The notes beneath the pieces were generated by a model. That model did no database searches. It saw only the letters and a list, made by a program, of their open reading frames with translations, and was not told where the DNA came from. Positions 1-64,000 of a stretch of 64,000 nt of DNA are shown piece by piece. A program made the translations under genes and the position numbers. Within the stretch, counting starts at the first letter, position 1, and each line of letters begins with the position of its first letter. Origin of the DNA: an uncultured Opitutales bacterium (GTDB taxonomy: Bacteria > Verrucomicrobiota > Verrucomicrobiia > Opitutales > UBA953); assembly GCA_934675585.1 (NCBI GenBank), contig CAKUQY010000002.1:41133-105132 (forward strand), given 5' to 3'.

Positions 1-3000
1 GCAGGAACGAGCATTGATGCGCACGCAATCGCGCTCGACAACAGCACCAGCAATTTTACCGTCGCGGGAACGATGAATCTCGAAGATTCTGTTTTTGTCA
101 ATGGCGGCACGCTCAATCTCGCCGCCACAGGAACGCTTGCGCCCTACACAGCTGGACAATTTGGCGCGGACAAAGGCCTCAAATTCCAACAAACTGGCGG
201 CACTGTCAATTTTGCGGGAACGGCAAATTTTAAGCGCGGCTTCAAACAAACGGGCGGCACGTTTAATTTTTCGGGAACGTTAAATTCAGAGAAAGGCATT
301 TACGTTTCGGGAACGGGCTCGTTTGTCATCGCAGCTGCCACTTCGCTCGCCAACGATTTGTTTGTTAGCGGCGCCGACGCTTCGCTCATTATCAACGATG
401 GCGGCAATTTAGATTATTCGGCGGGAACGCTCACGGTTGACGATGGCGCAACGTTGACATTTAATTCGGACAACGTTTCGAGCTCGACCATTACAATCAA
501 TTCTAACGCGCTCATCGTCATCACCAACAAAGCCAAATTCAAACTCAACATCGCGCAAAATGTTGCCGATTTTCAAAATTTTGATTTTGTCGCAGTGAGC
601 GCTTCCTATTTAGCGACCGTTCAATTGGCAAACGAAAATATTTCAATCGTCGGCAACGACGGCAATTACACAGGCAATTTTGACCTCATAAAAGACAACG
701 GCAAATTGATTGTTTCGCTCATTGGGAACATGAAATTGATTTCCGAAGAAGACCAAGACTACGAAGTTTCAAGCAACGGCGCACGTTTTCGTTCAACCTT
801 GAAAAATTACGCGGGAACGCTCACGGGAACGGGAATTTTAGAGTCCAACTTTGACATTTCATTTGCCGCCAACGCGTCTGGTTTTTCGGGCGAAACAAAA
901 ATTTCAAACAGCAATTTCACCATCAAATCTGGCGCGCAACTCGGCACGGGAACATTCACAGTTGGCGCCAACGCAAATTTGATTTTTGACGGCAACCAAA
1001 CTTTCAACAACACCGTCAGCGGCGATGGCTCAATGAAAGTCATTGCGGGAACGCTCAATTTTGGCGGGAACGCCAGCACGCTCGCGGGAACGGCAACTGT
1101 TGACGGCAACAGCGCAAAAATCATCGCGGGAACGGGCTCAACACTCAATAATCTCGCCCTCAAAAACAACGCTTCGGCAGAATTGGCGGGAACGATCAAC
1201 GGCGATTTATCAATCGCGGGCGCAAGCGCAACGCTAAAAACAGGCGCAACGGTTGCGGGAAAATTTATTCTCAACAACGCCACGCTCACAACAGAAAGTG
1301 AATTGACGCTCAACAATAATGCCGAAAATCTTTTTGGCAACAATTCAAAAATCATCGGCAATGTCACTGTCGCCAATGCCAATTTAACCATCAACGAATC
1401 GACCATCGAAGGTAATTTAAAAATCGACAACATAGCGGGAACGGTAAAATTAAACGGTGCAAAAATCATAGGCGATTTTACGGCTACCGCGGGAACAGTT
1501 AATTTGGTCGGCAGCAACAATGTCAGCGGCGAAATTTCAATCAGTAGTGGTGTCACGCTCAACCAAGACACGAACGCAACATTGACCGCGGAAACGATGA
1601 CAATCAACCACGCTAATTACGACCTTGCAGGCAGTGCGAATATCGAAAATCTTGTCATTCAAAACGGCTCTACATTCACACAAGGCGCCGATGGAGCAAT
1701 TCGTAGTTTGCAATTGCTCAACAATTCGACCGCAACGCTCGCGGGAATAGTCGCGGGCGCGGTTTCTGTTGACGCAACTTCAATGCTCACAGCAACCGCA
1801 AACGCGTTCACAAACACCGCCGTCACCAACAATGGTAAACTTTATTTAAAAGCGGGAACGCTCACACAACGCATTTCCGGCACGGGAACGACGACGATTA
1901 CCGAAGACATCACAACCACGGCAAACAACGTCGGCTCGAAATTTACAACCAACGAAAATGTCGCAATCACACTCACTGCGGGAACGCTCGAAAATCAAAT
2001 CACCGGTGCGGGAACAATTATTATCGCAGGCAATGTTGACGGCAACGCAGACAATTTTGATAACAAAATTACAATCAACAACGCCGCCACGCTCACGCTC
2101 AACGCGGGAACGCTCGGCAAAGTAATTTCGGGCGCGGGAACAACAATTATCGCGGGCGAAGTTACAACCAATGCCGACAATTTAGGCACGCAAACAATTG
2201 TCAACCAAGACAAAAAAATTACGCTCAGCGCGGGAACGCTCAATCGCCAAATCAGCGGCGACGGCACAATCGCAATCACGGGCGATGTCACCGCGAGCGC
2301 CAATAATTTAAACGCCAATGTTGAAAACAGTGGCGCGCTCACGCTCACCACGGGAACACTCAACAAGCCAATCGCGGGAACGGGTACAATCGCGCTCGCA
2401 GGCGACATTAAAACAGACGCCAGCAATTTGGGCGCAAGTTTGCAAAATAATCAACGTCTCGTTTTGACAGGCGGCGCGCTCATGAACTCGATTACGGGAA
2501 CGGGAACGACCGAGATTATTGGCAACATCGCCGTTTTTGGGAACAATCCGTTCGGGAACAATCGCATCGTTGTCAACGGCGGCAGAATGAATTTGAACAA
2601 CGGCATCACAATCAACAATACCGTCAAATTATTGCTTTCAGACGAATATCGCATCATCGCCGACAGCGCCGCGCCCGAAGCCGCGTTTGGCGGGAACGGC
2701 AATTTTACAGGAACGCTCTTGATTTCTGCAATCAACAATCGCTACGTTTCGCAATTTGACGATTTAACGCTGCTTTCGTTTGCATTGGCAGAAGCAAATT
2801 CGACACTCGCAACTTCACTCGCGCAAGCCAATATTTTGATCGACGAAACTCTCTGGGCAGATTGGTCAATAATCAATCTCACCAACGGCACACTGACGCT
2901 CGCCTACCGCTACGACACAACGCCATACAGCGCGCCATCGGGCTTGAACGAACTTTACAAACTCGTCGGCGATAAACGCATTTTGGGCTACGTAAAATCA

Positions 3001-3996
3001 ACATTTGACGCACGCTTAGTTGCGCTCTCGCCAATCGGCTACGCCAGCTTGCTCGAAATGCAAAACGGCTGTGCCAATCTCGTCAACGATTTGCTACGGG
3101 AACGCCTCGAACAACGCCGCTACGAAACTGCGAACGCGTGGGACAATTCAATGTCTTGCAAATTTTACGCCAACGCATTCGGACAATCGCGCGATAGCAG
3201 CGGCAACGGCACAAAATCAGCAAATTATGATATCAACCACAAGGGAGTAGTTGCTGGAGTGGACGTGCCACTTTCAAATAGAGCACTTTTTGGATTTGGT
3301 GTCGCAGCTGATATTGCTAACGCACAAGTTAAAAACGGCGAAAAAAATCAAGCCGACACTACGATGCTCACATTCTCAGGAATGCAAATGTTTAACAATA
3401 CTTACATCGGCTTGGGGTTGAGCGCGGGAACGTCTTGGCTCGAAGCCAAACGCACACTCGACAACGAAAACTTCTCAAAGAAAACCAACGGTCTCAACGC
3501 TAATTTGTCAGTTATCGCAGGCGCAGGTTGGATTCTCAACGAACAAGCCGGCATCGATTTTTCGCCATTTGTCGGCGTTGATATCGCCTACACTTACGTC
3601 AAAGGTTTTAGTGAAAACACACCCGCAGATTCCGCACAATCTGCCGCACTCAAAGTCGATTCATTCGATCATTTTTCAGTGCGTGGCAAAATCGGTGCTT
3701 CGCTCAATTGGCGCGCAAGTAAAAACTGGCGTTTAGGCATCGAAGCAACATTCGCTCACGAATTCGTAAAACCTGAATTAGATATCGACGCAGCATTCAA
3801 ACAAAACGCTGCAATCGGCGATCAAAAATTCACTTCAACCGCGTATTTGATGGAAGAAAATAGCTTCCAAATCGGCCCGCGTCTCGACTACACGCTCAAC
3901 CGCAATTGGTCGCTCTCACTCGCTTACACTTACGAAAGCGATTTCAAAGATGTAACCAGCCACAGCGGGAACGTCGGCGCGCGTTGCAGATTCTAA
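1..3996 (+). CDS. Autotransporter, passenger and beta-domain (5' end outside window)
   Basis: The reading frame is open from base 1, so the true start and signal peptide lie upstream; an internal ATG at 73 is not the start. The first ~1,000 residues are low-complexity Ala/Gly/Thr/Asn-rich passenger sequence typical of beta-helical autotransporters. They include six tandem units, with repeat starts at 1852, 1978, 2104, 2230, 2350 and 2470 (42, 42, 42, 40, 40 residues apart). The last ~300 residues look like an outer-membrane autotransporter beta-barrel: alternating aromatic strands and a C-terminal Phe (ends Arg-Cys-Arg-Phe). The tripeptide Ala-Gly-Thr encoded by the iterated motif recurs across the passenger. 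Likely a surface-displayed protein; adhesin is a guess. Confidence 0.9.
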   Translation, partial: AGTSIDAHAIALDNSTSNFTVAGTMNLEDSVFVNGGTLNLAATGTLAPYTAGQFGADKGLKFQQTGGTVNFAGTANFKRGFKQTGGTFNFSGTLNSEKGIYVSGTGSFVIAAATSLANDLFVSGADASLIINDGGNLDYSAGTLTVDDGATLTFNSDNVSSSTITINSNALIVITNKAKFKLNIAQNVADFQNFDFVAVSASYLATVQLANENISIVGNDGNYTGNFDLIKDNGKLIVSLIGNMKLISEEDQDYEVSSNGARFRSTLKNYAGTLTGTGILESNFDISFAANASGFSGETKISNSNFTIKSGAQLGTGTFTVGANANLIFDGNQTFNNTVSGDGSMKVIAGTLNFGGNASTLAGTATVDGNSAKIIAGTGSTLNNLALKNNASAELAGTINGDLSIAGASATLKTGATVAGKFILNNATLTTESELTLNNNAENLFGNNSKIIGNVTVANANLTINESTIEGNLKIDNIAGTVKLNGAKIIGDFTATAGTVNLVGSNNVSGEISISSGVTLNQDTNATLTAETMTINHANYDLAGSANIENLVIQNGSTFTQGADGAIRSLQLLNNSTATLAGIVAGAVSVDATSMLTATANAFTNTAVTNNGKLYLKAGTLTQRISGTGTTTITEDITTTANNVGSKFTTNENVAITLTAGTLENQITGAGTIIIAGNVDGNADNFDNKITINNAATLTLNAGTLGKVISGAGTTIIAGEVTTNADNLGTQTIVNQDKKITLSAGTLNRQISGDGTIAITGDVTASANNLNANVENSGALTLTTGTLNKPIAGTGTIALAGDIKTDASNLGASLQNNQRLVLTGGALMNSITGTGTTEIIGNIAVFGNNPFGNNRIVVNGGRMNLNNGITINNTVKLLLSDEYRIIADSAAPEAAFGGNGNFTGTLLISAINNRYVSQFDDLTLLSFALAEANSTLATSLAQANILIDETLWADWSIINLTNGTLTLAYRYDTTPYSAPSGLNELYKLVGDKRILGYVKSTFDARLVALSPIGYASLLEMQNGCANLVNDLLRERLEQRRYETANAWDNSMSCKFYANAFGQSRDSSGNGTKSANYDINHKGVVAGVDVPLSNRALFGFGVAADIANAQVKNGEKNQADTTMLTFSGMQMFNNTYIGLGLSAGTSWLEAKRTLDNENFSKKTNGLNANLSVIAGAGWILNEQAGIDFSPFVGVDIAYTYVKGFSENTPADSAQSAALKVDSFDHFSVRGKIGASLNWRASKNWRLGIEATFAHEFVKPELDIDAAFKQNAAIGDQKFTSTAYLMEENSFQIGPRLDYTLNRNWSLSLAYTYESDFKDVTSHSGNVGARCRF
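1852..2550 (+). repeat. Tandem ~42-codon repeats in autotransporter passenger
   Basis: Six consecutive units each begin with an (A/T/G)GT/A-L turn and continue with a (I/V)(S/T/A)G-(T/A/D)-GT stretch. Spacing between unit starts is 126, 126, 126, 120 and 120 bases. Five of the six units start on a copy, exact or near-exact, of the iterated motif. Such repeats form coils of a beta-helix and are prone to copy-number change. Confidence 0.85.
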
Positions 3997-4363: not shown

Positions 4364-4485
4364 CACTCCCTTCGGGACTGATTTTATTTTTGATCTACCC
4401 CCACACGCTCGCGTTCCCGCTCGCTTTTGTGGGGGTTAGCCATCGCGGGAACGCGTTCCCGCAATTTCAGTGCCTTCGGCACAAG
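4364..4485 (+). repeat. Dispersed REP-like element, copy 1
   Basis: Begins with CACTCCCTTCGGGACTGAT, runs through a hairpin with arms CCCCCACA and TGTGGGGG, then the palindrome of two head-to-head iterated motifs, and ends at CAGTGCCTTCGGCAC. The same succession is found in reverse orientation at 63409-63530 and partially at 4690-4860. Not coding. Confidence 0.75.
4445..4462. repeat. Perfect 18-bp palindrome of two head-to-head motifs
   Basis: GCGGGAACGCGTTCCCGC is exactly self-complementary: two copies of the iterated nonamer meeting at their 3' ends. The equivalent place in the inverted copy near 63431-63448 has the same arms with one centre base changed. Confidence 0.85.
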
Positions 4486-4689: not shown

Positions 4690-4860
4690 TTTTTTTAGTT
4701 CACTCCCTTCGGGACTGATGTTATTTTGTTCTTACCCCCACACGCGAGACGCGCATTCGCGCGACTATGACGATGACAATGACGATGACCGAGTTTGAAA
4801 ATAACTGAAATAAAATTTGCTCGCTTTTGTGGGGGTTAACCGTCGCGGGAACGCGCTTTT
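4690..4860 (+). repeat. Dispersed REP-like element, copy 2 (interrupted)
   Basis: Shares the TTCACTCCCTTCGGGACTGA start and the CCCCCACAC ... TTTTGTGGGGGTTA hairpin arms with copy 1. The loop is expanded by about 70 bases carrying a degenerate GATGAC hexamer repeat. After the right arm it continues into a motif copy. Confidence 0.65.
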
Positions 4861-5039: not shown

Positions 5040-5657
5040 ATGAAATTATTTAAGAAAAAATCGGGCTTTACACTCGTTGAAATTTTAGTTGTCATTGCAA
5101 TTATCGGCCTTTTGGCGGGCTTACTCGTTCCCGTCGTTGGCGCAGCAATGGGAAAAGTCAAAAAAACAACTTCCAAATCAATGTTTACTTCGTGGGTAAC
5201 CGCCATCGAAAACTACAAGCAAACTTATAATTACTACCCAATTCTCGTCAAAGGTCAATCAGTTGGGGATGACCAAGAATACAATCTCGGCGACGGCACG
5301 ACATCGCTCAATTTCGTCAAAGCGCTTTCGGGACGCGATCCCGCAACTGGCGAAGTCCTCAGCAAAGAAGACCTCAAAAGTTTTAACCGCAAAGGCACTT
5401 CATTTTATGAATTTTCGCAAGAAGATTTTGAAGACGGCAACACCTCAAACGGACAACTCGTTGACGGTTTTGGCAATCCCAACATTCACATCGTGATGGA
5501 CACCGACGGGAACGGTCGCGTTGTCATTCCTAATCAATACATGCCCGATGACGCAACCGATGCCGAAGAAGATTCTAACGGCATTATGCGCAAAGTCATC
5601 ATCTTCACCTCAAAGAAGGACGGAGACGATTACGAAGATATTTACAGCTGGCGCTAA
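5040..5657 (+). CDS. Type II secretion GspG-like major pseudopilin
   Basis: 205 residues. A short basic leader (KKK) ends at Gly9; cleavage before Phe10 gives a mature protein with the conserved Glu at +5 (Glu14) and a long hydrophobic helix (about 10-35), the hallmark of class III prepilins processed by PilD-type peptidases. The C-terminal part is acidic and resembles the globular domain of GspG, with a D-T-D-G-N-G loop that could bind calcium. First gene of a four-gene cassette on the same strand with gaps of about 40-55 bases. No secretin, ATPase or prepilin peptidase gene is in the window, so the assembly machine must be encoded elsewhere. Confidence 0.85.
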   Translation: MKLFKKKSGFTLVEILVVIAIIGLLAGLLVPVVGAAMGKVKKTTSKSMFTSWVTAIENYKQTYNYYPILVKGQSVGDDQEYNLGDGTTSLNFVKALSGRDPATGEVLSKEDLKSFNRKGTSFYEFSQEDFEDGNTSNGQLVDGFGNPNIHIVMDTDGNGRVVIPNQYMPDDATDAEEDSNGIMRKVIIFTSKKDGDDYEDIYSWR

Positions 5658-5700: not shown

Positions 5701-6453
5701 ATGAAACTTGCAAATCTCAAATCTCAAATTTTGACGCGCTTGCGTTCCCGCAAACGCCGCGCCTTCACGCTCATCGAAATCTTGACTGTTGTCGCGATTA
5801 TCGGCATGGTCGCAGTCGTTATCGTGGGCTTAAAACCTGGCAACCCGCGCGGGCTCGATGACGCTTGCAAAATGGCGGGAATGGAATTTCGTATCGCGCA
5901 AGCCCAAGCTGTGCGCGGCACTAATCCCGACCGCGATCCCGACACCAACAAGCGCTACAACATCCGTTCCGCTGTTTTGATTCTCAAAGACGAAGACGAC
6001 GCAGAAAACCACCTGCGCCGCATCCAAACAATTGTCGGCGGGACCGACGATCAGGAAAAAACCGACATGCGCGACTATTATTGGTACGCGGTCGGCGAGC
6101 CGGTTATGCTGCCGGAAAACATTTATTTTGTCGAGCCCAACGCGACCGACGTTGAAGTGAAATCCACAATCAAACCCATCGAAGGCGACGAGGAAATTAC
6201 GCTCGACCCGTCAACGGAACTCGGCGGAAAAAAATTCGGCTCGGGAGAAAAACGCTGGTACGCTTATTATTTTGATACCAACGGTCAAACTTACATGACA
6301 AAAGCCACGTTTATGATCGCCAAGGGCGCGTTTATGCCCGGCTCCAGCGTTCGTTTTGAAAAAGACACGCCCGCACAAGGATTTGTCATAACGCGCAACG
6401 GCGCAATCATTTACACGCGCGATAGCGATGAAGCAGAAATCGCCGCCAAATAA
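5701..6453 (+). CDS. Prepilin-like protein (GspH-type; Verru_Chthon cassette D-like)
   Basis: 250 residues. Basic leader with a run of Arg/Lys, predicted cleavage Ala21|Phe22, Glu26 at +5, hydrophobic helix about 22-45. Ala instead of Gly at -1 is unusual but tolerated in some pseudopilins, and is shared with the fourth gene of the cassette. The remaining ~200 residues are soluble and not recognised beyond the prepilin N-terminus. The Arg-Ser-Arg of the leader is encoded by one copy of the iterated motif. Verrucomicrobium and Chthoniobacter carry comparable cassettes of prepilin-like proteins; the assignment to protein D of that cassette is from memory and tentative. Confidence 0.75.
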   Translation: MKLANLKSQILTRLRSRKRRAFTLIEILTVVAIIGMVAVVIVGLKPGNPRGLDDACKMAGMEFRIAQAQAVRGTNPDRDPDTNKRYNIRSAVLILKDEDDAENHLRRIQTIVGGTDDQEKTDMRDYYWYAVGEPVMLPENIYFVEPNATDVEVKSTIKPIEGDEEITLDPSTELGGKKFGSGEKRWYAYYFDTNGQTYMTKATFMIAKGAFMPGSSVRFEKDTPAQGFVITRNGAIIYTRDSDEAEIAAK

Positions 6454-6492: not shown

Positions 6493-7218
6493 ATGAATCT
6501 CGCCAATCTCAAAACTCAACTTTCAAACTGCACGCGTTCCCGCAAACGCGGTTTCAGTCTCGTCGAAGTTTTGCTCGCCCTCGCTGTGCTCGGCATGGCG
6601 ATTTTGACTATTTTAGGACTCCTCAACGCGGCGTTTGATACCGTCAGCGGCAACTTGCAAACTTCGCAAGCCCTCACCGTTTACGGCACGATGGATCGCT
6701 CGCTCGCCAACGTCAACGAAATCGTCGATGAAACAGGCCGTCCCGTCGTGACACAATCGGAAATGAACCAGCCAAAATTCGACTACGTTTACGACTGGAT
6801 AAAAGACAAAAATGGCAAATCGTGGGAAAGCGCGGCATTCTTCGTTGTTTTTTCGCGCCGTCTTAACGATGAAGAAGACAAAACGCCTCAAATGGTTACG
6901 CAGGCGATGTATTGCGAATCTTCAAACAAAATGCCAACCAAAGACATTCTGGACAATCTCAATCAAGACGGGAACGCGTTTTTGGTGCGCGTCTTCATTT
7001 CTCCAGAACTTGAAGGACAGAATGTAACGATGGACGCCAACGGCGAAGTCGCAAACAATCAATATTCGGCGGGAACGGCGCTTCCCGCGAGCGCAAAACT
7101 CTACGCCCTGCCTTATCTTCCCGTGACGATCGAAGTTTATCCGTTCGCAATCGGCGCTTCAAAACAGGCAGCCGATCAAATTCCCATTTTCTCGCAAATG
7201 TCGATAATTATGCGATAA
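6493..7218 (+). CDS. Prepilin-like protein (GspI-type; Verru_Chthon cassette B-like)
   Basis: 241 residues. Leader of 20 residues ending Gly20|Phe21, Glu25 at +5, then a hydrophobic helix rich in Leu/Ala (21-48). As in the second gene, the leader begins Met-x-Leu-Ala-Asn-Leu-Lys and carries Arg-Ser-Arg-Lys-Arg encoded partly by the iterated motif, so the two leaders look related by duplication. The C-terminal domain is unassigned. Likely a minor pseudopilin of the tip or shaft. Confidence 0.75.
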   Translation: MNLANLKTQLSNCTRSRKRGFSLVEVLLALAVLGMAILTILGLLNAAFDTVSGNLQTSQALTVYGTMDRSLANVNEIVDETGRPVVTQSEMNQPKFDYVYDWIKDKNGKSWESAAFFVVFSRRLNDEEDKTPQMVTQAMYCESSNKMPTKDILDNLNQDGNAFLVRVFISPELEGQNVTMDANGEVANNQYSAGTALPASAKLYALPYLPVTIEVYPFAIGASKQAADQIPIFSQMSIIMR

Positions 7219-7274: not shown

Positions 7275-8318
7275 ATGAGATTCTCCGTTTTCAAAACCCG
7301 ACTGCCAAACCGCAAACGCCGCGCTTTCACGCTCGTCGAAATTATGACGGCGACGGCGATCATGCTGATACTGATTATGTTCACGACGCGCATCGCGAGC
7401 GACATGCTGCGCGCCTACAACAACACGATTTCGTCGCTGACCGCCAATGCCGATTCCCGCGCCGTGCTCGACCCAATCGATAATGATTTAAGTTCCCTCT
7501 ATTTCCCCAACGACGGCAAATACTGGTTTGAAGTTCGCTACGACGAAAACAATCAGGGAAATCTGGACGGGAACGAGCTCCCGCGCGTCTATTTCTTCTC
7601 CCAAGCCCGCGATCGCGTCCGCCGCATAATTGACGGGAACACCAAAAAGGAACTGCCGGGAACGGTTACCGCGCTCGCTTATCGCATTGAACAAGCTTCA
7701 CCTTTTGGCGACACCATCAATTCGCCAGAAAATCTCTCGTACATTTTCTACCGCTCGACGCTCAACAGCCAAGACACGCAGAAAATCGCAATGCCCTACG
7801 TTATCGGCAACGAAACGACAAACTCCGAGGAAAAACGCGTTCCAAGCGCGTTTTGGAAATCTGGCGAACAAATCACAGACCCGACAGACGAGCAGAAATA
7901 CGCGGTTAAAACCTGGGCGACAGATTTGCAAAACTACACCTGCGACGGCGTTGTTAATATGACATTTTTCTTTTGGTATGACGACCTCGACGACGGCAAA
8001 CGCAAAATCGCAATGGCGCGCAATTCCGCGCTCGAAGCCCAATTGCGGCAAGCGTTCCCAGACGTTGAAATTAAAGTTTTCTCAAAATCAATCGCAATCT
8101 CCTCTGACAAAATTATGTTCGACGACCGGGCGAACAACAAAACCAATGCAACTTTGCGAGCAATCGATGTTTCAATCACAATGCTCACTCAATCAGGACG
8201 CGACCTCTTGCTCGCCGAACAACGCCAACGCAATAACGGCAAAATCGACGACAAAAAATTCACGCAAATTCTGCGGGAACACGGCGTAACCTACACGCGA
8301 AACATCAAAATCAATTAA
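7275..8318 (+). CDS. Prepilin-like protein (GspJ-type; Verru_Chthon cassette C-like)
   Basis: 347 residues, the largest of the four. Leader cleaved at Ala17|Phe18 with Glu22 at +5 and a hydrophobic helix (18-40). A long soluble domain follows, in length and position like GspJ, which caps pseudopili. It is the last prepilin gene; the glycosyltransferase gene starts 9 bases after its stop, so the two may be co-transcribed. Confidence 0.75.
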   Translation: MRFSVFKTRLPNRKRRAFTLVEIMTATAIMLILIMFTTRIASDMLRAYNNTISSLTANADSRAVLDPIDNDLSSLYFPNDGKYWFEVRYDENNQGNLDGNELPRVYFFSQARDRVRRIIDGNTKKELPGTVTALAYRIEQASPFGDTINSPENLSYIFYRSTLNSQDTQKIAMPYVIGNETTNSEEKRVPSAFWKSGEQITDPTDEQKYAVKTWATDLQNYTCDGVVNMTFFFWYDDLDDGKRKIAMARNSALEAQLRQAFPDVEIKVFSKSIAISSDKIMFDDRANNKTNATLRAIDVSITMLTQSGRDLLLAEQRQRNNGKIDDKKFTQILREHGVTYTRNIKIN

Positions 8319-8327: not shown

Positions 8328-9017
8328 ATGCAACTCGCAATAATTGTTCCCTGCTTCAATGAGGCAGGGAATATTTTTTCTTTTTACCAAACACTCAACC
8401 GCGTTCCCGTCGAAATTGCCAAAATCATTTTTGTCGATGATGGTTCAAGCGATAATACACGCGAAAAAATCGCACAACTCAACGACCCGCGCGTTCAATG
8501 TTTAGCAATCAGACACTGCGGCAAAGAACGCGCATTATTACACGGAATCAACCACGCGCTCAGCGCGGGAACGCCACTCATCGCAACCATCGACGTTGAC
8601 GGGCAAGACCCAATCGAACTTTTGCCAAAACTCGCCAACGCCATCAAACGCGGCAAATGCGAACTCGCCGCAACACGCCGACGTTCCCGCAAAAACGAAC
8701 CATTTCTCAAACGCGCGCTCGCGGGAACGGCTTATTTTTTAGCACCATTTATTTGCGGAATCTCTCTCGTAAATGGCGCGCGCGACTATTGTGTAATGAC
8801 GCGACAAGTCGCCCAAAAAATCGCAACTCTTTCAAACTCTAAAAATCTTTTCCTCAAAGGACAAATCCAAGCCATGCAATTCAAAACGCGCTGGCTTACG
8901 TTTGATTACCGTTCCCGCAAAAACGGCAAAAGCAAATGGAGTTTTTGGCAACTGCTCATTTACACGCTCCGCGGCGCACTCGTCACACGCCAACAACGGA
9001 AAATTAGCCGCGAATAA
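8328..9017 (+). CDS. Family 2 glycosyltransferase (DPM1/GtrB-like)
   Basis: 229 residues. N-terminal Rossmann-like start with Val-Pro-Cys-Phe-Asn-Glu, Val-Asp-Asp-Gly-Ser-Ser (36-41) and the metal-binding Asp89-Val-Asp91 in an IDVDGQDP segment, as in polyprenyl-phosphate sugar transferases. The pair of C-terminal membrane helices usual in GtrB-like enzymes is absent; the sequence stops soon after the Lys-Trp-Ser-Phe amphipathic segment. Likely transfers a sugar from a nucleotide donor to a lipid carrier, perhaps for glycosylation of a surface structure. Its place right behind the prepilins allows, but does not prove, a role in modifying them. Confidence 0.8.
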   Translation: MQLAIIVPCFNEAGNIFSFYQTLNRVPVEIAKIIFVDDGSSDNTREKIAQLNDPRVQCLAIRHCGKERALLHGINHALSAGTPLIATIDVDGQDPIELLPKLANAIKRGKCELAATRRRSRKNEPFLKRALAGTAYFLAPFICGISLVNGARDYCVMTRQVAQKIATLSNSKNLFLKGQIQAMQFKTRWLTFDYRSRKNGKSKWSFWQLLIYTLRGALVTRQQRKISRE

Positions 9018-9336
9018 AAACGGTTTTTTTATCCACGAATTGCCCGAATTTCACGGATTTTTTATTTGGATTTTATTCGGCGGGAACGGGTTTTGAGCGC
9101 TGAAAGCGCGACTTTTTCAGCCCAAGGCGGAAGCCCTGGGTAATGAAACCCCAAAAGCCACGAGCCCTAAAAGGGCGGCTCTCACCACAAACATAAAATT
9201 CGCGGGAACGCCAGATTTTCTCGCCAAAAGAACAAAGCGCCGAAGCGTCGGCGATTTAAGCCGCCGAGTTTTTTCGGAAATATTAATTAGAACCAAATTT
9301 TTTATCCACGAATAACAGTGATTGCACGAATGATTT
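9018..9336. repeat. Intergenic dispersed repeats
   Basis: No gene seen. Contains a TTTTTTATCCACGAATT block at about 9028, a GCGCTGAAAGCGCGAC hairpin and a 'GCCCAAGGC.GAAGCCCTGGG' palindromic block at 9105-9150 (similar inverted material at 63690-63780), and a third repeat (9201-9274) found again at 11168-11241 and 17027-17093. Confidence 0.65.
9201..9274 (+). repeat. Dispersed repeat B, copy 1
   Basis: Starts on the iterated motif, continues CCAGATTTTCTCGCC, then a hairpin TCGGCG...CCGCCGA and a T-run. Copies 2 and 3 are at 11168-11241 and 17027-17093. The hairpin plus T-run resembles a mobile terminator. Confidence 0.65.
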
Positions 9337-9609
9337 TTACGCGGGAACGACAATCAATTTTTTACCCAACGGACGCAAAAGTTTGGAAATCGTAAGCAAT
9401 GTCGGCGACACATTTCCTCGTTCAATGCGCGTAATCATCGGCTGCTTAATTCCTGTTAGCGATTCAAGTTCTTTTTGAGAAATGCCAAGTTCCCCGCGTG
9501 CTTTCACCAGCTCCGACGCGATCGCCGTCGCAAGATTGACTTCATCAATCTCTTCCGCCGACATTTTTGATTCCAAATATTCAATCGCATTTAAATTTTT
9601 CTTTTTCAT
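9337..9609 (-). CDS. XRE-family HTH protein, antitoxin-like, solitary
   Basis: 90 residues. A helix-turn-helix of the Cro/C1 (XRE) type spans about residues 36-75 (L-G-I-S-Q-K-E-L ... G-I-K-Q-P-M-I-T-R-I-E-R-G), as in HigA-like antitoxins. These are normally paired with a RelE/HigB toxin, but no toxin frame is next to it on either side. The extreme C-terminus Val-Val-Pro-Ala is encoded by an iterated motif that runs into the stop codon. It may be an orphan antitoxin left after toxin loss, or a stand-alone regulator. Confidence 0.8.
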   Translation of the reverse strand: MKKKNLNAIEYLESKMSAEEIDEVNLATAIASELVKARGELGISQKELESLTGIKQPMITRIERGNVSPTLLTISKLLRPLGKKLIVVPA

Positions 9610-10362
9610 TCATAAACCTTTCTTTTGATTTACTTTTATCCGCATGCAAGCTGTCAAAAAAATCTTTCACGGAAGATTTTCCATTTTCTGAAGTATAAAT
9701 TATTACCTCGAACATAATTGAAGTTTATAACTTTTAAGTTATAATTGCAAGCAAAAACAACGTACAATCTCTCGCGGGAACGGATTTTTTATCCACGTAC
9801 CGAGCGAAGCGACACCCTGCCATTGCTCGAATTACACGGATTATTTTTTAACCGCAAAGAAAGCGAAGGAAATAAAGGTTTAGTTTTAACGCAAATGACA
9901 CGGATTTTAAGCAAATTACGCAATTTTTTGTTGGGATTTTATTTTGGCGGGAACGGAAAATTTCAACTAGGGAACTAAGGGAAATTTTTAAGGGAACTAA
10001 GATTTTTGTTGGTTGGCGCGGGAACACGGGAATAACTGATAACTGAAAACTGAAAGCTGAAAACTGCGGGAACGGGAATTTCAACTTTTAAATTTCTTAC
10101 AAGCTCGGTCATAGTCATTGTCATCGTCATCGTCGTTTTTGCGCGGGAACGCGGATAACGGGAAACTACATTTTTCGACTACGAACTGACGCTGATGAAA
10201 ACGAATTTTAAATTTTAACGTTCAATGGTTTCATCTCGCTTCACTCAACATTTAACTTTCTTTTAAGTTGCCACATGGCGCGGCTATTTTCGACTGCCAC
10301 GCCCTTCTCCCAATTTACCGCGCCACGTCATTTAAAACTACCGCTCAGAAATGAAAAGAGAA
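9610..10362. repeat. Repeat-rich intergenic region without a gene
   Basis: Holds one arm of a ~120-base direct repeat (9780-9903), short AACTGAAAACTGAA-type runs near 10030, a degenerate GTCATY hexamer run at about 10108-10135 (reverse complement of the one at 4766-4790), and motif copies. Open frames here translate the repeat and have no family resemblance. Confidence 0.65.
9780..9903 (+). repeat. ~120-bp direct repeat, left copy
   Basis: Shares with 10860-10985 the succession ATTTTTTATC.ACGTACCGAG, CGAAGCGACACC, CCATTGC, then TTTTTTAACCGCAAAGAAAG, GAAGGAAATAAAGG and TTAACGCARATGACACGG with only scattered differences. The two copies flank the two-gene pair at 10407-10800. Confidence 0.8.
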
Positions 10363-10392
10363 TTGAGGGGCAAATCTCAAATATGTTAGAAT
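10363..10392 (+). promoter_or_regulatory. Promoter of the small gene pair
   Basis: TTGAGG (10363-10368), 18-base spacer, TAGAAT (10387-10392); start codon at 10407, about 14 bases after the -10 box. Confidence 0.5.
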
Positions 10393-10406
10393 AACAACAT
10401 AAAAGA

Positions 10407-10625
10407 ATGGCCCCTCCTAAAATCCCGCAAGCAGACATCAACCGACGTTATCCTCGCAGTATCAAAAATCTGTTCATTTTTAAAGAAATTTGCGACGCTT
10501 GCTATTGTTTAGACAATCGAGGAGAAAAACCAACACCAATATTTTCACAACAAATAGGACAAAAAATTCGAATTTTCGATGAAAAAATAATGTCCGAAAT
10601 AAGAAAGGTAATCAACAATGACTAA
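10407..10625 (+). CDS. Small hypothetical protein, first of an overlapping pair
   Basis: 72 residues, not recognised. Basic N-terminal half with two Cys in Cys-Asp-Ala-Cys (about 30-33) and an Ile-rich, charged C-terminus. It contains no copy of the iterated motif, is A/T-rich compared with its neighbours, has a plausible promoter of its own, and overlaps the next gene by 8 bases, all of which favour a real gene. A toxin-antitoxin pair or remnant cargo of a mobile element are possible. Confidence 0.5.
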   Translation: MAPPKIPQADINRRYPRSIKNLFIFKEICDACYCLDNRGEKPTPIFSQQIGQKIRIFDEKIMSEIRKVINND

Positions 10626-10800
10626 CGACGAATTTGACAAACTTGGAAAAGAAATGCTTCATGGTCTCCAAATCGCAATTCAAGAAGACTATCAACGCAA
10701 AGCAAAATTGGGACAAAAAGTTGTCATCGCCGACAAAAACGGCAAGCCCAAATTGTATTCCGCAAGATATTTGTTAAGAAAAAAATCAAACAAATCTTAA
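10618..10800 (+). CDS. Small hypothetical protein, second of an overlapping pair
   Basis: 60 residues. Pattern: charged helix followed by Lys-x-Gly-Gln-x-Val-Val-Ile-Ala-Asp-Lys-Asn-Gly-Lys-Pro, then a basic tail. It looks like short conserved proteins in which a helix is followed by a 'G-x-x-V-V-x-x-x-D-G' strand, but I cannot name a family. Starts inside the end of the upstream gene (8-base overlap), so translation is probably coupled. Confidence 0.5.
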   Translation: MTNDEFDKLGKEMLHGLQIAIQEDYQRKAKLGQKVVIADKNGKPKLYSARYLLRKKSNKS

Positions 10801-10859
10801 CGCAGACTTTTAAACCGCGGGAACGTTTTTTTGAAGTTCACGCAGATTCCGCTGAATAC

Positions 10860-10985
10860 GCAGATTTTTTATCAACGTACCGAGCGAAGCGACACCCCGC
10901 CATTGCACAAATCACACGAATATTTTTTTAACCGCAAAGAAAGCGAAGGAAATAAAGGTTTAGTTTTAACGCAGATGACACGGGA
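10860..10985 (+). repeat. ~120-bp direct repeat, right copy
   Basis: Counterpart of 9780-9903, same orientation, about 1,080 bases apart. Ends just before a motif copy (ACGGGAACGGG) that is absent from the left copy. Confidence 0.8.
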
Positions 10986-11167
10986 ACGGGATTTTTTATC
11001 CACGAATTTCACTAACAACACGAATAAATTTAACGCGGTTTTTTAGATTAAAAACGCGGAGCGTTTGCCATTGATAACCACAGGTAATTTTGAGCAACGC
11101 GAAAAATCACTTGGGGAAAAAATATAGCACTAAAAACCTGAAAGGTTTCCTAATTTGCGGACGGGCT

Positions 11168-11241
11168 CGCGGGAACGCCAGATTTTCTCGCCCGAAGAAC
11201 GAAGATTGCGAAGTTTCGGCGGTTAAGCCGCCGAGTTTTTT
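11168..11241 (+). repeat. Dispersed repeat B, copy 2
   Basis: CGCGGGAACGCCAGATTTTC start, variable middle, hairpin CGGCGG-TTAAG-CCGCCG followed by GAGTTTTTT. This is the best terminator-like copy of the three. Confidence 0.7.
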
Positions 11242-11294
11242 ATTTGAATTTTTTCGCGAAAAGCAAAAACCCTATAGTTTCGGGAACATAAAAT

Positions 11295-12464
11295 TTATTC
11301 GTGAAAACGGGAAGACTTTATGTTTAAGCTTTTTGACAAAAATTGCATTGAAAAATTTCTGAAATTTTTAAGTTTTTCTTCGATACTTTTCCAATTTATC
11401 GGAATACGCATTTGCTCATACATTGTTCCGTTGTTCTCCGAATAAATGCGAGATTCAAGACCTAATTTCTCCAAAATTGATAGAAAACGACAGTTTTCAG
11501 ATTCTGTTTTCCCTTTTTGTAAAATTACTAAAAATTGTTTTCGCATAATAATTGCAAATGCCGTTCCGTGAAATGAATTTGTAATTACACATTCCGATTT
11601 ATCGTATGCATTCAACCATTCCGTCGGAGATGGAGTAAAAACGTATTCTTCTGGAACACAAAGTTCTGTTCCCTGCAACGGAATAACTTTTAATGCTGAA
11701 TTATAATCCTTCGAAAGTTTCAAAGTTTCTTTCCAAGGTAATTCATCAAGAGATTTTACATTCAAAAAATATGCCAAAATCGTTTTTTGCGGGAACGCCA
11801 AATCTTTATTTTCCGCAAAAACGAATTTCATATAATCTTCCTTATCAAGCAACAATGTTGGATCGCAAACGTGGACCGGATTTTTAAAGGGTGTCTTTTT
11901 CACGACGTCGATTCCTTCAGGTTCGCGGACAGAAATTGCATCAAATTTTGGAAGCAATTTTTCCGCGCTTTTATACCATTTGTTTGTCCGTGTTTTCCAA
12001 GCGGTGCTCACTGCGTAAGCAATTCTCAAAGCTTTTTTTGGCGCGAAATCAAGACTTGTCGCAATTGACAAACAGCCCCACATTTGATCACTGCCAACAA
12101 TGTAAACTTCTGCAACTGGAGGATTTTCAAGCAATTCTTTCTCCGTAAAAATATGTTCTGTTCGCGGAAGATTTTTTGACATAAAATCCTCAAAATAACG
12201 CGGATGTTTTTTATTAAATTTTGCAAAAAGTTTTTCTTCCTTTTTTCGCCTAAATTTTTCTGGAATCGCAAAAATATTTTTATTTCGATAAAAAAATGCA
12301 AGAATGCGCCAAATAAATGGCCGCCTGTTCCCAGTATTCCTAATCAAAAAAGTTTCATGCCCTTCTTTTTGAAGATAAGTTTGTAAAGCAAGATTTTGAA
12401 ATAATGAACCGTAGTTATCCCAATATCTTAACCATCCGTCAGCAGAAATAATGCCTATTTTCAT
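11295..12464 (-). CDS. Polysaccharide pyruvyl transferase family protein
   Basis: About 389 residues counted from the ATG at 12464, which overlaps the TGA of the upstream gene (ATGA). An in-frame ATG further upstream (12506) lies inside that gene and is unlikely. Family signs are the N-terminal Lys-Ile-Gly-Ile-Ile, the Val-Gly-Ser-Asp-Gln-Met-Trp motif near one third of the length and Asn-Ser-Phe-His-Gly-Thr-Ala-Phe-Ala late in the protein. Such enzymes (CsaB/WcaK-like) add pyruvate ketals to exopolysaccharide or cell-wall sugars. Last gene of the surface-polysaccharide cluster. Confidence 0.88.
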   Translation of the reverse strand: MKIGIISADGWLRYWDNYGSLFQNLALQTYLQKEGHETFLIRNTGNRRPFIWRILAFFYRNKNIFAIPEKFRRKKEEKLFAKFNKKHPRYFEDFMSKNLPRTEHIFTEKELLENPPVAEVYIVGSDQMWGCLSIATSLDFAPKKALRIAYAVSTAWKTRTNKWYKSAEKLLPKFDAISVREPEGIDVVKKTPFKNPVHVCDPTLLLDKEDYMKFVFAENKDLAFPQKTILAYFLNVKSLDELPWKETLKLSKDYNSALKVIPLQGTELCVPEEYVFTPSPTEWLNAYDKSECVITNSFHGTAFAIIMRKQFLVILQKGKTESENCRFLSILEKLGLESRIYSENNGTMYEQMRIPINWKSIEEKLKNFRNFSMQFLSKSLNIKSSRFHE

Positions 12465-13684
12465 ATTTGTTTTTCCCTTATTTTTTTTATTAAACAGAAA
12501 ATGCAAACTTTGCGAGCCGTGCTAATTAGACAACTCTTTAACCATTGCTTAAAAGACGCTCTCGTTTTTGTTTTGAATAATTTATAAATTTGCGCAACGT
12601 CATTTAAAGAATTCAATTCTTTAAGAAAACGATTATCGTTCATTTTCCAATGTGAAGCGTGCGGACGAATTCCGCCGTTCCCGACAGCGGCTATCTCAAA
12701 CGACGAATTAATATTTATAGAAAGTTTTTGTTTAATTGCGTTAAGAAAAAACCTCCCATTTTCACTCCAAGCAATAACAGCGGAAATTCCTTCTCCGACA
12801 TTAATTTGAGGATCAATTGCTTTAATATTCCAAAAATCACCAAGTGTAATATCTGCGCCACTTAATCCTTCTTTTCCTGGGCACTTGTGACAACTTGGAC
12901 GTGTAATTTGCATTCCTAAAAACGCTTTGCCAAACGGATAATTATAATATTTAGCATCCGCATAAATTTTATCGTCCTGTTCTATGCAAAAATGAGTTTC
13001 AATTTCCGTTCCCGCAACAACGCGTTTGCGAAAAGAAACATTCGTCGTATTTTTAGTTTTAATTTTTTCATTGTCGCAAATTGCCAAGTAATATTTTCTC
13101 CATGCCATTGGCGATGGAACCGCGTGGCAAGCAACTTCGACTGCGAGTAAATTATTAAATTTTTTAACCAAGAAACGCTTCAATCCCGCGATTTGACAGG
13201 GCGTTCCCGTAAAAAGCACTTGTCGTCCCGCGAGTAAAAACTGTTTCGCCTTTACAAAATTATTACCGATTACCGATTGTAAATATTTGCTCCCGCGAAA
13301 TGCCGCAAGCCCGTCAAACGTTTCCGTAAAATCATGGATTACCGCAGTAAAATCTTCATTCCAGCGCGCACCAAAAACAACGCCGCCCTCACTTATAATT
13401 TTTTCCGCAAGTAAAGTAAAAATTCCGCCAGATGTTGATTGCATTCGCAAATTATCATTCGCGCAACGTGCGGCAATTACTTCCGTTTTTTCAGCATTTG
13501 CGGGAACGCGATTAAGCGATGGACAAACTTTTTCGCACAAATGGCAATTAATGCAGTTGTCAGCATTTATACGAGGATAAAGAAAACCTTCTTCATCCTC
13601 TTTCATTACAATACATTGTTTAGGGCATATGCTCATACAGGCGCTACAACCGCAACAATCTTCTTTTCTTTTTAACTCAATCAT
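12461..13684 (-). CDS. Coenzyme F420 hydrogenase/dehydrogenase beta-subunit family, ferredoxin-like N-terminus
   Basis: 407 residues. Two 4Fe-4S ferredoxin motifs at the N-terminus (C-x2-C-x2-C-x3-C-P at about 9-20 and 43-54), followed by FrhB N- and C-terminal-like regions with further Cys (for example C-H-K-C-P). In bacteria such proteins repeatedly sit next to pyruvyl transferases in capsule and exopolysaccharide loci, as here, where the two overlap by four bases; the reaction there is not well established. It likely performs a redox step on a sugar or supports the transferase. F420 itself need not be present. Confidence 0.85.
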   Translation of the reverse strand: MIELKRKEDCCGCSACMSICPKQCIVMKEDEEGFLYPRINADNCINCHLCEKVCPSLNRVPANAEKTEVIAARCANDNLRMQSTSGGIFTLLAEKIISEGGVVFGARWNEDFTAVIHDFTETFDGLAAFRGSKYLQSVIGNNFVKAKQFLLAGRQVLFTGTPCQIAGLKRFLVKKFNNLLAVEVACHAVPSPMAWRKYYLAICDNEKIKTKNTTNVSFRKRVVAGTEIETHFCIEQDDKIYADAKYYNYPFGKAFLGMQITRPSCHKCPGKEGLSGADITLGDFWNIKAIDPQINVGEGISAVIAWSENGRFFLNAIKQKLSININSSFEIAAVGNGGIRPHASHWKMNDNRFLKELNSLNDVAQIYKLFKTKTRASFKQWLKSCLISTARKVCIFCLIKKIREKQI

Positions 13685-13733
13685 TTTGCGTAAAAACTAT
13701 TTGCTTGAAGCAAAAGTTTCCACGCAATTTTTA

Positions 13734-14746: not shown

Positions 14747-14749
14747 ATA

Positions 14750-36331: not shown

Positions 36332-39091
36332 TTAAAATGAAATGCGCGCGCCCGCGTTCAATTTTAATTCGTTTGCATCGCTGCGTTGCGTTCCCGACAC
36401 GCCGCCAAAAATTGAAAAACGTTCGTTAATTGCGTAATCTGCCATCGCGTTTAATTGCAAGCCAAAACTTTTGTGTTCGCGCCCTTGCAAATTAATTTGC
36501 GATTGCGTATCAATGTCGTAAGCGTTTTGGTTGTATTGTTTGCTGCCAAAATCGTAGAGCATTTTTCCGCTGATAGTAATTTGCAACGCATCAATGGGCA
36601 ACCACGCATAAGTTAAGCCCGCCGAAGCGCGTGCTGTCCAAGCGTGGTCTGCGTCAACATTGAGCGTTCCCGCGCCGTGTTCTTCAATCGCGTCGCTGTG
36701 CGCGTAAATGGTAGTGAGCCCAAAATTTGTGCGAAAAAGCGAAGTTGCGCTCGGCATAAAACCAAGTCCAAAATCCATCAACGCTCCCGCCTGCCAAGAA
36801 TCAAAATCGGCATTCGCGTTCCCGCGCGTTGATTCCGTTGAGCTTTTCCCGCCCAAAATTGCGAAAGTTGCGTCCGTTCCCGTGCGGTCGTCGTAGCGCA
36901 AAAATGCCATTGTTTGATAAAAATCGCTGTCGAGTTCGTGCTCGATCGACGTTCCCGCCGTTTTCATTTTTTGTTTTGAATAGCCCAAAGCCAAGCCCAC
37001 GCTCCAATTATTTCCCAAGAAAATATCGGTGCCGAGCAGCGTTCCCGCCGTGGTCAAATCGTATTCGGGATTGTTGCCGGCAGCTTTGCGCGTCGAGCTC
37101 AAAGACGTTCCCGCGAGCCACGCATTTGAAAGCGCTTTTTCGGCGACTTTTGCGTAATCGCCAGGATTTTCTTCGCTGACGGAAACAATTTCGGGCTTGT
37201 TTTCGGTGCGATCAAATTGACGTTCCCGCTCCAAAAATCCGCGCATATATTTTGAAGTTTTGCGCGTTTTGCCAAACAAGGGTTTGCGCACATTCTTGGA
37301 ATCGAATTGAGCCAAAACATTTTCTGCAAAATTAAACGTTTGCAAACTTTGTTCCCGCAAAAAATCGGGAAAAAGCGTAGTTCCAACATCACGTCCATTC
37401 AGCCCCAAAAATGTCCACTTGCCATCGCGCCAAACAAGACGACCCGCGAGCGGAATTCCCGAAGTCGTCCAAAGCGAAGTGTTTGCGAATGAATTTTCGT
37501 CTAAATTATCCAGCGCTTCAAAAACCGTTCCCACCGACATTTGCGAAACGTCAATCAACAAACGGCTTCTCTCGACAAATTCGACCGTTCCCGCGAGCGA
37601 CGCGCCAGCGTTGATTTGAAGCGTTCCCGTGTTTTTCAAACCGTTGACAAAATTTGTTGCGCCGTTGATGATGAGCGTTCCCGCGTTTTCAAAAACGCCG
37701 CCCGCGGTTGTAATTATTTGCACGTTGGCTGCGAGTGTGAGCGTTCCCGTGGCCGTATTTATCCACGTTTCCTTGATTTGAATCGCGTTGCTTGCGAGCG
37801 AAACTTTGCCGCTGGATGTTACTTTCCCTTCGATATTTGCAATTGAAATCGTTCCCGCCGCGGCAGTCAAATTGCCTTTGAGCGTTCCCGCGCCTGCGAG
37901 CTCTGACGAAATTTTTGCAGATTTAATATTTGCTTCTAAAGTGGAATTTTCGGCGATTGTCAAAACTGCGCCCGAGCCCAATTCAACTTCGTCGGTAATT
38001 TTCAAAGTTTCTCTCGGCGAATCAATGAGCGCGGTTCCCGTTCCCGCGACAGTCAATTTTTTAATTGTCGTTCCCGCAGAAAATTTAAGCGTTCCCGCGA
38101 GCGAAATTTCTTTGATTTCGGAACTTGTATCGAGCGTCAATTTTGTGTTTTTTTCGACAATTAAAGTTTGACCGCTCACGTCAATATTCCCGCCCAAAAC
38201 AAAACCTACACCCTCTTTCTGCGCCAAAAACGTAATTTTTTGTTGGTTGGCTTCGCCGTCGCCAACGAGTTTTCCTGCGCCGTTAATCGTGAGCGTTCCT
38301 TTTTCAACGACGATCACATTGGTGTAGTTGTTTTGCGAGTTTTTAATTTTTAAAGTTTTGTCGGCATCGACTGTCAATTTTACGCCATCGATTTTACCCA
38401 AAATTAATCCCGCATCGAGATTGTTTTGCAACGTTGAATTGCCTTCAATGTTAATCGTATTGGCGATTAATTTTTCTCCAGCGAGCGCGCCGCCCGCAAG
38501 CGTGATTGCAACTTTTGAAAAATTGGTTTCTTTGGCGAAAGTCGTCGTTCCCGCAGAAAATTTAAGCGTTCCCGTCTCGAGTTCAAGCGCGGTTTCGGCG
38601 GTGCCAAGCGTGGCGTTCCCGCGAAATTCGACAAGCGATTTTTCGTTCCCGAGCGACAGCGATTTTATCGTTCCCGAAAAACTCTCGCCAAAAACTAATT
38701 TTGCATCATTCGCGAGCGAAAAATTGAAATTGCCCGTTGCGTTTGCAATCGAATTTTCTGTTCCCGAAAAATTAATCGTCGCCGTCGAATTTTCGCCCGA
38801 AAGCGCGAGCGTTCCCGTCAAATTGGCATTATTTAATGTAAGCGTTGTGCCGTTGGCGACAGTTAAATTGCCCGACAAATTGAGCGTTCCCGTATTGACA
38901 AGCGTTCCCGCCGTGATTGAAACATTGTGGGAAATTATCACATCGCCCGTCAATTTCAGCGTTCCCGCGAGGATTTTAATGTCTTCGCTTGAATTAAAAT
39001 CATCTCGCGTCGTATTTTCAGAAATCTCTTCCGCCGTCGCGGCGAGCGTTCCCGCGGCAATTAAAAACAAAGCTGTAATCGTTTTATACAT
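36332..39091 (-). CDS. Autotransporter, complete
   Basis: 919 residues. Signal peptide of about 20 residues ending A-A-T-A, with Ala-Gly-Thr from an iterated motif. Passenger of about 550 residues rich in Thr/Asn/Gly with repeated 'A-G-T-L-K-F/L' turns, nearly all encoded by motif copies in the coding orientation. C-terminal beta-barrel of about 280 residues ending Arg-Ile-Ser-Phe. Related in style to the autotransporter at 1-3996 but not a duplicate. Confidence 0.9.
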   Translation of the reverse strand: MYKTITALFLIAAGTLAATAEEISENTTRDDFNSSEDIKILAGTLKLTGDVIISHNVSITAGTLVNTGTLNLSGNLTVANGTTLTLNNANLTGTLALSGENSTATINFSGTENSIANATGNFNFSLANDAKLVFGESFSGTIKSLSLGNEKSLVEFRGNATLGTAETALELETGTLKFSAGTTTFAKETNFSKVAITLAGGALAGEKLIANTINIEGNSTLQNNLDAGLILGKIDGVKLTVDADKTLKIKNSQNNYTNVIVVEKGTLTINGAGKLVGDGEANQQKITFLAQKEGVGFVLGGNIDVSGQTLIVEKNTKLTLDTSSEIKEISLAGTLKFSAGTTIKKLTVAGTGTALIDSPRETLKITDEVELGSGAVLTIAENSTLEANIKSAKISSELAGAGTLKGNLTAAAGTISIANIEGKVTSSGKVSLASNAIQIKETWINTATGTLTLAANVQIITTAGGVFENAGTLIINGATNFVNGLKNTGTLQINAGASLAGTVEFVERSRLLIDVSQMSVGTVFEALDNLDENSFANTSLWTTSGIPLAGRLVWRDGKWTFLGLNGRDVGTTLFPDFLREQSLQTFNFAENVLAQFDSKNVRKPLFGKTRKTSKYMRGFLERERQFDRTENKPEIVSVSEENPGDYAKVAEKALSNAWLAGTSLSSTRKAAGNNPEYDLTTAGTLLGTDIFLGNNWSVGLALGYSKQKMKTAGTSIEHELDSDFYQTMAFLRYDDRTGTDATFAILGGKSSTESTRGNANADFDSWQAGALMDFGLGFMPSATSLFRTNFGLTTIYAHSDAIEEHGAGTLNVDADHAWTARASAGLTYAWLPIDALQITISGKMLYDFGSKQYNQNAYDIDTQSQINLQGREHKSFGLQLNAMADYAINERFSIFGGVSGTQRSDANELKLNAGARISF

Positions 39092-63314: not shown

Positions 63315-63350
63315 CGTTCCCGCACGTGAAATTTGCGGGAACGTTTTTTT
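63315..63350 (+). terminator. Hairpin of two inverted iterated motifs with T-run
   Basis: Arms CGTTCCCGCA (63315-63324) and TGCGGGAACG (63334-63343) with a 9-base loop and seven T. Terminator-like on the + strand, although no + strand gene runs into it within the window. Confidence 0.65.
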
Positions 63351-63408: not shown

Positions 63409-63530
63409 AAGTGCCGAAGGCACTGAAATTGCGGGAACACGTTCCCGCAATGGCTAACCCCCACAAAAGCTCGCGGGAACGCGAGCGTGTGGGGGTAAAA
63501 CAAAACAAAAATCAGTCCCGAAGGGAGTGA
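63409..63530 (-). repeat. Dispersed REP-like element, copy 3 (inverted)
   Basis: Reverse complement of the order seen at 4364-4485: GTGCCGAAGGCACTGAAATT, palindrome of two motifs, GGCTAACCCCCACAAAAGC, GCGTGTGGGGGTA, then ATCAGTCCCGAAGGGAGTGA. Nearly 59 kb from the other copies. Confidence 0.8.
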
Positions 63531-64000
63531 ATAAAAAAAACTGCCATTCCCACGCTCAACTCGCAGCAAACTTAAAAAATTCGTCTCCTTGAAGTGTTAA
63601 ATGTCGCTTCGCTCGGTACGCGTTTATTTCGCGTAAATTCGTAGTTGAAAAAAATCTGCGTTCCCGCGAGATTGGCGTTTGTAGCGAGAGTCGCCCTTAC
63701 AGGGCTGGCTTTTATTTTTTGGTTATCCAGGGCTTGCGCCCTGGGCTGAAATAAGTCGCGCCGTTGGCGCTTGGAGTTTGCGGGGCGAAAAAATAAAATT
63801 GGATACGCGAAACGCGCATCCTCCCATAAAATCTGCGTAATCGGCGAGATCTGCGTGAGAAAAATTTTCATATTCCCGCCTCGCAGCGAACTTAAAAAGT
63901 CCGCCTCTTTGAAAAACCTTTTCGCCGTAGTTAATTGTGATAAAAGCAAGCATAAAAGTTAATTATTTGTTTTTGAATATAATTTTTTAACAGTTGCGTT

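Follow-up and report, generated by a model that had tools for sequence, protein, structure and literature searches.

A dense nonamer of gut Opitutales around Candidatus Spyradosoma as a probable DNA uptake sequence

Uptake words have been described from two families, the Neisseriaceae and the Pasteurellaceae. The DNA uptake sequence (DUS) of the former, with ComP as its receptor, is presented in PMC3630211 and PMC1626085 as a short, exact word found in thousands of copies on both strands and more densely between genes, and in Neisseria its paired copies are associated with terminators (PMC3630211). The uptake signal sequence (USS) of the latter is a 9-mer with about one copy per kb, no orientation bias, a preference for non-coding DNA and an occurrence in opposite pairs, and the spacing of both DUS and USS is somewhat more regular than random (PMC1626085); one orientation of the known uptake words is the commoner in reading frames (PMC2346458). 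Highly iterated palindrome 1 (HIP1; GCGATCGC) of the cyanobacteria is, as its name says, palindromic, and two orphan methyltransferases recognise sequences inside it (PMC4390886). The current study concerns the nonamer GCGGGAACG, which crowds a 64,000-nucleotide stretch of an uncultured Opitutales bacterium (contig CAKUQY010000002.1, positions 41,133 to 105,132; hereafter the window, meaning the whole stretch that was analysed). Based upon genome comparisons, this word, with its core CGGGAACG, probably acts as a DNA uptake sequence of the Spyradosoma lineage, i.e. as a label of self DNA in natural transformation.

Much of what characterizes the DUS recurs in GCGGGAACG, including the exactness of the word, its copy number, its presence on both strands, its intergenic excess, its terminator-like pairs and its sharing within a kin group (compare PMC3630211 and PMC1626085 for these traits), and its carriers likewise possess type IV pilus and ComEC genes. 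It differs from the DUS in being another word in another phylum, in its clumped spacing, in that no ComP homologue was recognised, and in its density of 1.8-2.7 copies per kb, where about one is given for the DUS; an earlier note, made from the letters of the window, had already judged it denser than uptake sequences. With the USS it shares its length of nine bases, the lack of orientation bias, the non-coding preference and the opposite pairs (PMC1626085), and the USS core 5'-GCGG-3' (PMC12616744) also starts GCGGGAACG, probably by chance. Unlike the USS, the word is without AT-rich 3' flanking segments and has weak flanks only, with C after the core.

Within the window, GCGGGAACG occurs 172 times (75 forward, 97 reverse) and the shorter GGGAACG 267 times (122 forward, 145 reverse), where dinucleotide shuffles lead one to expect 1.07 and 8.56 copies, respectively. 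With a third-order Markov model trained on the window itself, the expectations are 8.2 and 34; by Markov z-score the nonamer ranks first among the window's 9-mers, and by observed/expected ratio only a poly-C run stands above it. The earlier note had described GGGAACG as lying far above a chance expectation of about eight, in both orientations and in all reading frames, and as not self-complementary. All of this is borne out, as all six frames are used and the non-palindromic core differs from its reverse complement CGTTCCCG, but the 33 copies that it placed in the first 4 kb are in fact 25, all forward and within an open frame spanning 1-3996. The commonest frame reads Ala-Gly-Thr, followed on the contigs of a relative (our genome G003) by Val-Pro, read from the opposite strand. 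As the core of the word, the 8-mer CGGGAACG fits best; it has 255 copies in the window, with a preference for G (0.67) or A (0.20) before it and, to a lesser degree, for C (0.51) after it. A 5' purine and a 3' C also surround the core in G003, G005 and G002; in G020 (44 copies) the 3' base is C (0.41) or G (0.39), and a T three bases 5' of the core (0.51) is pronounced in the window alone. Besides GCGGGAACG, k-mers such as ACCCCCACA are also conspicuous in the window, where a repeated element with inverted ends adjoins copies of the word (Table 1).

A census of the 79 genomes of the family, in which GCGGGAACG was counted in forward and reverse orientation with the reversed pattern as the control, yields six dense genomes: G005 with 4396 copies (control 44), G003 with 3907 (48), G002 with 3514 (60), G020 with 3488 (48), G019 with 3353 (52) and G001 with 3060 (46), or 1.8-2.7 copies per kb. 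Two further carriers are sparse, namely G004 with 743 copies (62) and G006 with 336 (37), and the remaining 71 genomes hold at most 172 (control 141), most of them falling below their own control. Among 387 genomes sampled across the phylum and searched for RCGGGAACG, the only dense ones are G003, G005, G019 and G020 (4552-5397 copies), followed by a genome with 461 in 4.0 Mb. The word is limited to one animal-gut Opitutales lineage around Candidatus Spyradosoma; SdhA of the window matches animal-gut Opitutales metagenome-assembled genomes (MAGs), including Candidatus Spyradosoma merdigallinarum, with the best six at 86-92% identity. The contention that the motif saturates the chromosome thus extends to the whole genomes of six relatives (3,060-4,396 copies versus 44-60 of the control). 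These dense genomes show neither near-Markov whole-genome counts nor a motif restricted to a single contig, and as the word runs through entire genomes of relatives, a local or assembly effect is rejected. When open-licence full texts were searched for uptake sequences in Verrucomicrobi- or Opitut-named organisms, only a review on metagenome gene transfer was returned, in agreement with the earlier note, which knew of no described counterpart in the Planctomycetes-Verrucomicrobia-Chlamydiae group. Among the top-ranked open-licence titles listed for the nonamer on either strand, none suggests a genomic motif study.

It is also evident that the positions of the word are held in place among the dense genomes. 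In alignments obtained with blastn (E 1e-20, at least 200 aligned columns) and with GC-matched 9-mers as the reference, nonamers of G003 are exactly kept in G001 at 64 of 82 positions (reference 0.46, p 5e-9), in G002 at 19 of 32 (0.27, p 2e-4), in G019 at 15 of 24 (0.21, p 1e-5) and in G005 at 11 of 25 (0.22, p 0.014), with 11 of 30 kept in the reverse direction from G005 to G003 (0.13). Dense-to-dense retention therefore amounts to 1.7-3 times that of the reference. In the sparse genomes, only 2 of 47 nonamers of G003 are kept in G004 (0.15) and 2 of 21 in G006 (0.14); the small pairs gave 2/4 from G004 to G003, 2/3 from G006 to G003, and 0/3 and 0/2 between G004 and G006, and those involving the window or G020 comprise 2-6 copies each. 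Conservation of exact positions, a comparison suggested in the earlier note, is thus found among dense and not in sparse genomes, which argues that the word is maintained only among the former. Single-mismatch copies exceed expectation by a factor of 1.51 in G004 and 1.68 in G006, compared with 1.24-1.37 in the window, G003 and G005, but since the small control G007 reaches 1.32, this excess merely hints at erosion. A different repeat family, around GGGTTGGTGGTGG, was encountered in sparse G006 (stretches L006 and L093-L096), with GGGTTGGTG present in 40 copies in 67 kb.

The rpoB tree sets the eight carriers apart as one clade from four other family members (99/100) and pairs G004 with G006 as sisters (96/96), while leaving G020 unplaced (56/32). 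In a tree of six pilins, G004 and G006 join G020 and the window (90/94) and are thereby nested among the dense genomes; constraining the dense rows to one clade costs 8.8 log-likelihood units (approximately unbiased test, p 0.069). The four-pilin tree groups the window's pilins B1-B4 with those of G020 at 100/100 but leaves three groups unresolved, with the dense genomes together in 22% of bootstraps. On these trees, a single gain followed by a single loss in G004 and G006 would be favoured over a late gain, and the sparse genomes most likely have lost the drive and carry an eroding word. Despite the similarity of its pilins to those of the window, G020 has an rpoB (L340) with a very long branch (0.61), perhaps through fast evolution or a foreign contig.

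Placement of the word was examined in three segments, namely the window and a pair of long G003 contigs, for which the longest non-overlapping frames were taken as genes. In all three, intergenic DNA carries more nonamers per kb than genes do (5.47 vs 2.34, 2.83 vs 1.58 and 2.17 vs 1.76, in that order), on which ground a coding artefact was rejected. With strands assigned by GC skew, there is a modest overall excess on the leading strand (233 vs 155 and 207 vs 154 on the G003 contigs; for the window, 97 vs 75), but this excess vanishes between genes, where the leading strand has 70 of the 135 copies (p 0.73); there is no replication polarity between genes, and the overall excess fits a coding-frame preference. 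The Pasteurellaceae word is known for its bias toward gene ends; here such a bias is weak: out of 1160 copies, 141 fall into the first tenth of their gene and 128 into the last. Close pairs, less than 40 bases apart, are divergent in 27 cases and convergent in 10, compared with 165 and 184 among more distant pairs (p 0.003). By eye, a T tract was counted after 10 of the 12 listed divergent pairs in intergenic DNA, and folding of three pairs gave z-scores of -6.5 and -6.9 for two divergent pairs of G003 and -4.6 for a convergent pair of the window. The divergent inverted pairs look like terminator hairpins, as far as predicted folding can tell.

Certain stretches of G003 are thinned of the word. 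A low-GC cluster with glycosyltransferase and O-antigen ligase genes holds 0.47 core copies per kb (3.03 elsewhere on the contig), another stretch, encoding a Wzy polymerase and a glycosyltransferase, 1.07 (3.09), and a third, prophage-like by its genes for terminase, head-tail adaptor and tail and with a GC near that of its contig, 1.42 (3.07). The DNA in these stretches may be foreign. Density climbs with GC in all three segments (r 0.42, 0.21 and 0.81). Among 80 viral-contig stretches with two close copies of the word, drawn from at least 120 such stretches, none longer than 2 kb exceeds 8.3 nonamers per 10 kb, a scan that says little about phages of Spyradosoma-lineage hosts. At the opposite end, autotransporter genes rank among the most word-laden long genes (Table 1), and one such gene lies near the pilin genes B1-B4 in both the window and G003.

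The carriers encode the parts of a competence pilus. ComEC (PF03772) is present in all eight (73 of the 79 family genomes), as are PilT above its cut-off (75 of the 79) and DprA (all 16 genomes tested), and a secretin of PilQ-like length was found in seven, the exception being G005 with its short contigs. ComEC and the secretin had been named in the earlier note as genes to look for, as had a DNA-binding minor pilin, for which the GspH/FimT type (PF12019) was considered and rejected as receptor after giving no match at E 0.01 in the eight carriers. Type IV pilins of PF07963 occur in every carrier and number exactly seven in each of the six dense genomes, four of them adjacent (B1-B4, as in the window) and three single (A, C and D). 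G001, G002, G003, G019 and G020 each have one secretin match alongside the seven pilins; in sparse G004 and G006, a second secretin shares its contig with four extra pilin-like genes, and this set may be a type II secretion system. Pilin D, a short orphan with about 130 mature residues, stands apart from the others and is called a type IV pilin from its N-terminal motif and predicted fold (AlphaFold model, predicted local distance difference test score 87). Its profile finds full-length matches in all eight carriers (184-260 bits) and in none of the other 71 family genomes, where the best match covers residues 6-65 with 47 bits and another, with 33 bits, extends to residue 102. Among 5.8 billion proteins, D has 24 relatives, and the one with a source name comes from an Opitutales MAG.

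Taken as a DNA uptake sequence, the word would operate as follows. A type IV pilus would display a sequence-specific DNA-binding pilin, for which the candidate is orphan pilin D, found at full length only in word carriers, and this pilin would capture double-stranded DNA bearing the word. PilT retraction and ComEC would then import the captured DNA, and recombination would both spread and repair copies, so that the word piles up wherever proteins tolerate it. The features that resemble those of uptake words are the intergenic excess, the lack of intergenic polarity, the terminator-like inverted pairs, the thinning in prophage and some polysaccharide clusters, the retention of positions, which is limited to the dense genomes, and the competence pilus genes of the carriers. 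The pattern of an uptake word is matched except for regular spacing, and the strength of the consensus is mixed.

Several points weigh against the uptake reading. Firstly, the organisms are uncultured, and DNA uptake by them is a prediction from genomes. Secondly, uptake words are reported to have more perfect than single-mismatch copies; this holds for the core in the window (255 vs 173), whereas single-mismatch copies prevail in G003 (1249 vs 1307) and G005 (253 vs 349). Thirdly, the spacing in the three segments is more clumped than random (coefficient of variation 1.16-1.26), whereas the spacing of DUS and USS is given as somewhat regular in PMC1626085; islands and autotransporter clusters may raise this coefficient. 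Fourthly, the thinned stretches were chosen after their low counts had been noticed. By our estimate, its low GC alone would bring the O-antigen cluster down to about 0.4 of normal, where 0.15 is seen, and the prophage-like stretch is thinned to half the usual density, not emptied. Over 8 kb, the polysaccharide genes of the window at 8328-16312 (GC about 0.39) carry 17 nonamers, only slightly under the average, and a ribonucleotide reductase gene of G003 is without any core copy. Fifthly, ComEC, PilT and DprA are also present in word-free relatives, and hence the machinery does not discriminate. As for pilin D, its head domain is acidic (isoelectric point 5.0-5.9 in seven copies), unlike the basic ComP, and one basic stretch is not conserved in dense G020. 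Moreover, the carriers form one clade and the distribution of D is therefore confounded with kinship, which together with the acidic head makes D a candidate receptor only. Lastly, a methyltransferase of PF01555 is found in all eight carriers and in only two of eight other genomes tested.

This last observation is the strongest point in favour of the most probable alternative, namely that the word is kept, as in HIP1, by a DNA methyltransferase or another form of site maintenance or repair, with no involvement of DNA uptake. The extreme density and genome-wide spread of the word are indeed shared with HIP1. However, GCGGGAACG is no palindrome, and the sole PF01555 protein of G001 (401 residues) aligns poorly with that of G019 (277 residues), with 29% identity over 103 residues. 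Thus, within this one enzyme class and allowing for incomplete MAGs, there is no PF01555 orthogroup common to the six dense genomes. Upkeep of this sort does not by itself explain the surplus of divergent over convergent close pairs either, and we consider it unlikely. Of the two parallels originally drawn in the earlier note, the one with uptake sequences accordingly fits and the one with HIP1 does not.

Somewhat less likely still, the word could be bound by an abundant protein that is peculiar to the Spyradosoma lineage and organises the chromosome or acts as a global regulator. A binding site of this kind would agree with the intergenic excess, the restriction to one clade and the conserved positions, but it sits poorly with thousands of copies that are mostly genic, fall in all frames and crowd autotransporter genes. 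We give slightly lower odds to a mutational or gene-conversion drive that spreads the word for no cellular function; the turnover between species would suit such a drive, as would the fact that a single exact core is so strongly enriched, but we know of no process that makes one asymmetric 8-mer, and loss in one sub-lineage requires a machine that can be switched off. A Chi-like recombination hotspot or KOPS-like (FtsK orienting polar sequence) guide, read by RecBCD/AddAB or FtsK, is very improbable, because Chi and KOPS, although also short, G-rich and over-represented, are polar with replication, whereas the modest overall leading-strand excess that might speak for them is gone between genes, the word is far denser than Chi, and its word-free family relatives would need a different site.

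The features of the window and of G003 that bear on the word are collected in Table 1, together with two matches to the Acido-Lenti-1 RNA.

Table 1. Positions of word-bearing features, pilin genes and other elements (window coordinates unless a contig is named)
Feature	Position	Strand	Remarks
Autotransporter gene	1..3996	+	cut at window start; 18 nonamers, all +
Repeated element	4395-4440, 4733-4840, ~63440-63475		inverted ends around ACCCCCACA and TGTGGGGGTTA
Three nonamers in 51 bases	4412..4462	.	order -, +, -; last two back to back; between autotransporter and pilin genes
Type IV pilin B1 (PF07963)	5040..5657	+	90% identity to G020
Type IV pilin B2 (PF07963)	5701..6453	+	79% identity to G020
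Type IV pilin B3 (PF07963)	6493..7218	+	72% identity to G020
Type IV pilin B4 (PF07963)	7275..8318	+	76% identity to G020
Acido-Lenti-1 RNA	9096-9140	-	above Rfam gathering score; Opitutales genome
Second autotransporter gene	36332..39091	-	18 nonamers, all -
Intergenic divergent inverted pair	63315..63350	+	CGTTCCCGC, 11-base loop, GCGGGAACG, then TTTTTTT; predicted intrinsic terminator; layout as in two folded G003 pairs
Acido-Lenti-1 RNA	63726-63771	+	above Rfam gathering score; Opitutales genome
Autotransporter gene of G003	contig C3 140745-146858		38 core copies

An uptake-word system likely arose independently in the Verrucomicrobiota and was partly lost in one sub-lineage. More tentatively, it may constitute a third independent system of self-recognition, in which a word that exceeds those of Neisseria and Haemophilus in density labels the chromosomes of gut Verrucomicrobiota, is read by the lineage-specific orphan pilin D and is decaying in one sub-lineage. 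If GCGGGAACG is truly an uptake word, a case from the Verrucomicrobiota would mean that such words arise repeatedly, and it would supply an independent test of why they exist, whether through drive by a biased receptor or through selection for self DNA. Since the lineage contains dense and sparse sister groups, both gain and loss should be datable. As a marker, the word would furthermore point to natural transformation in gut bacteria that are uncultured and help to pick out genes that they have recently acquired.

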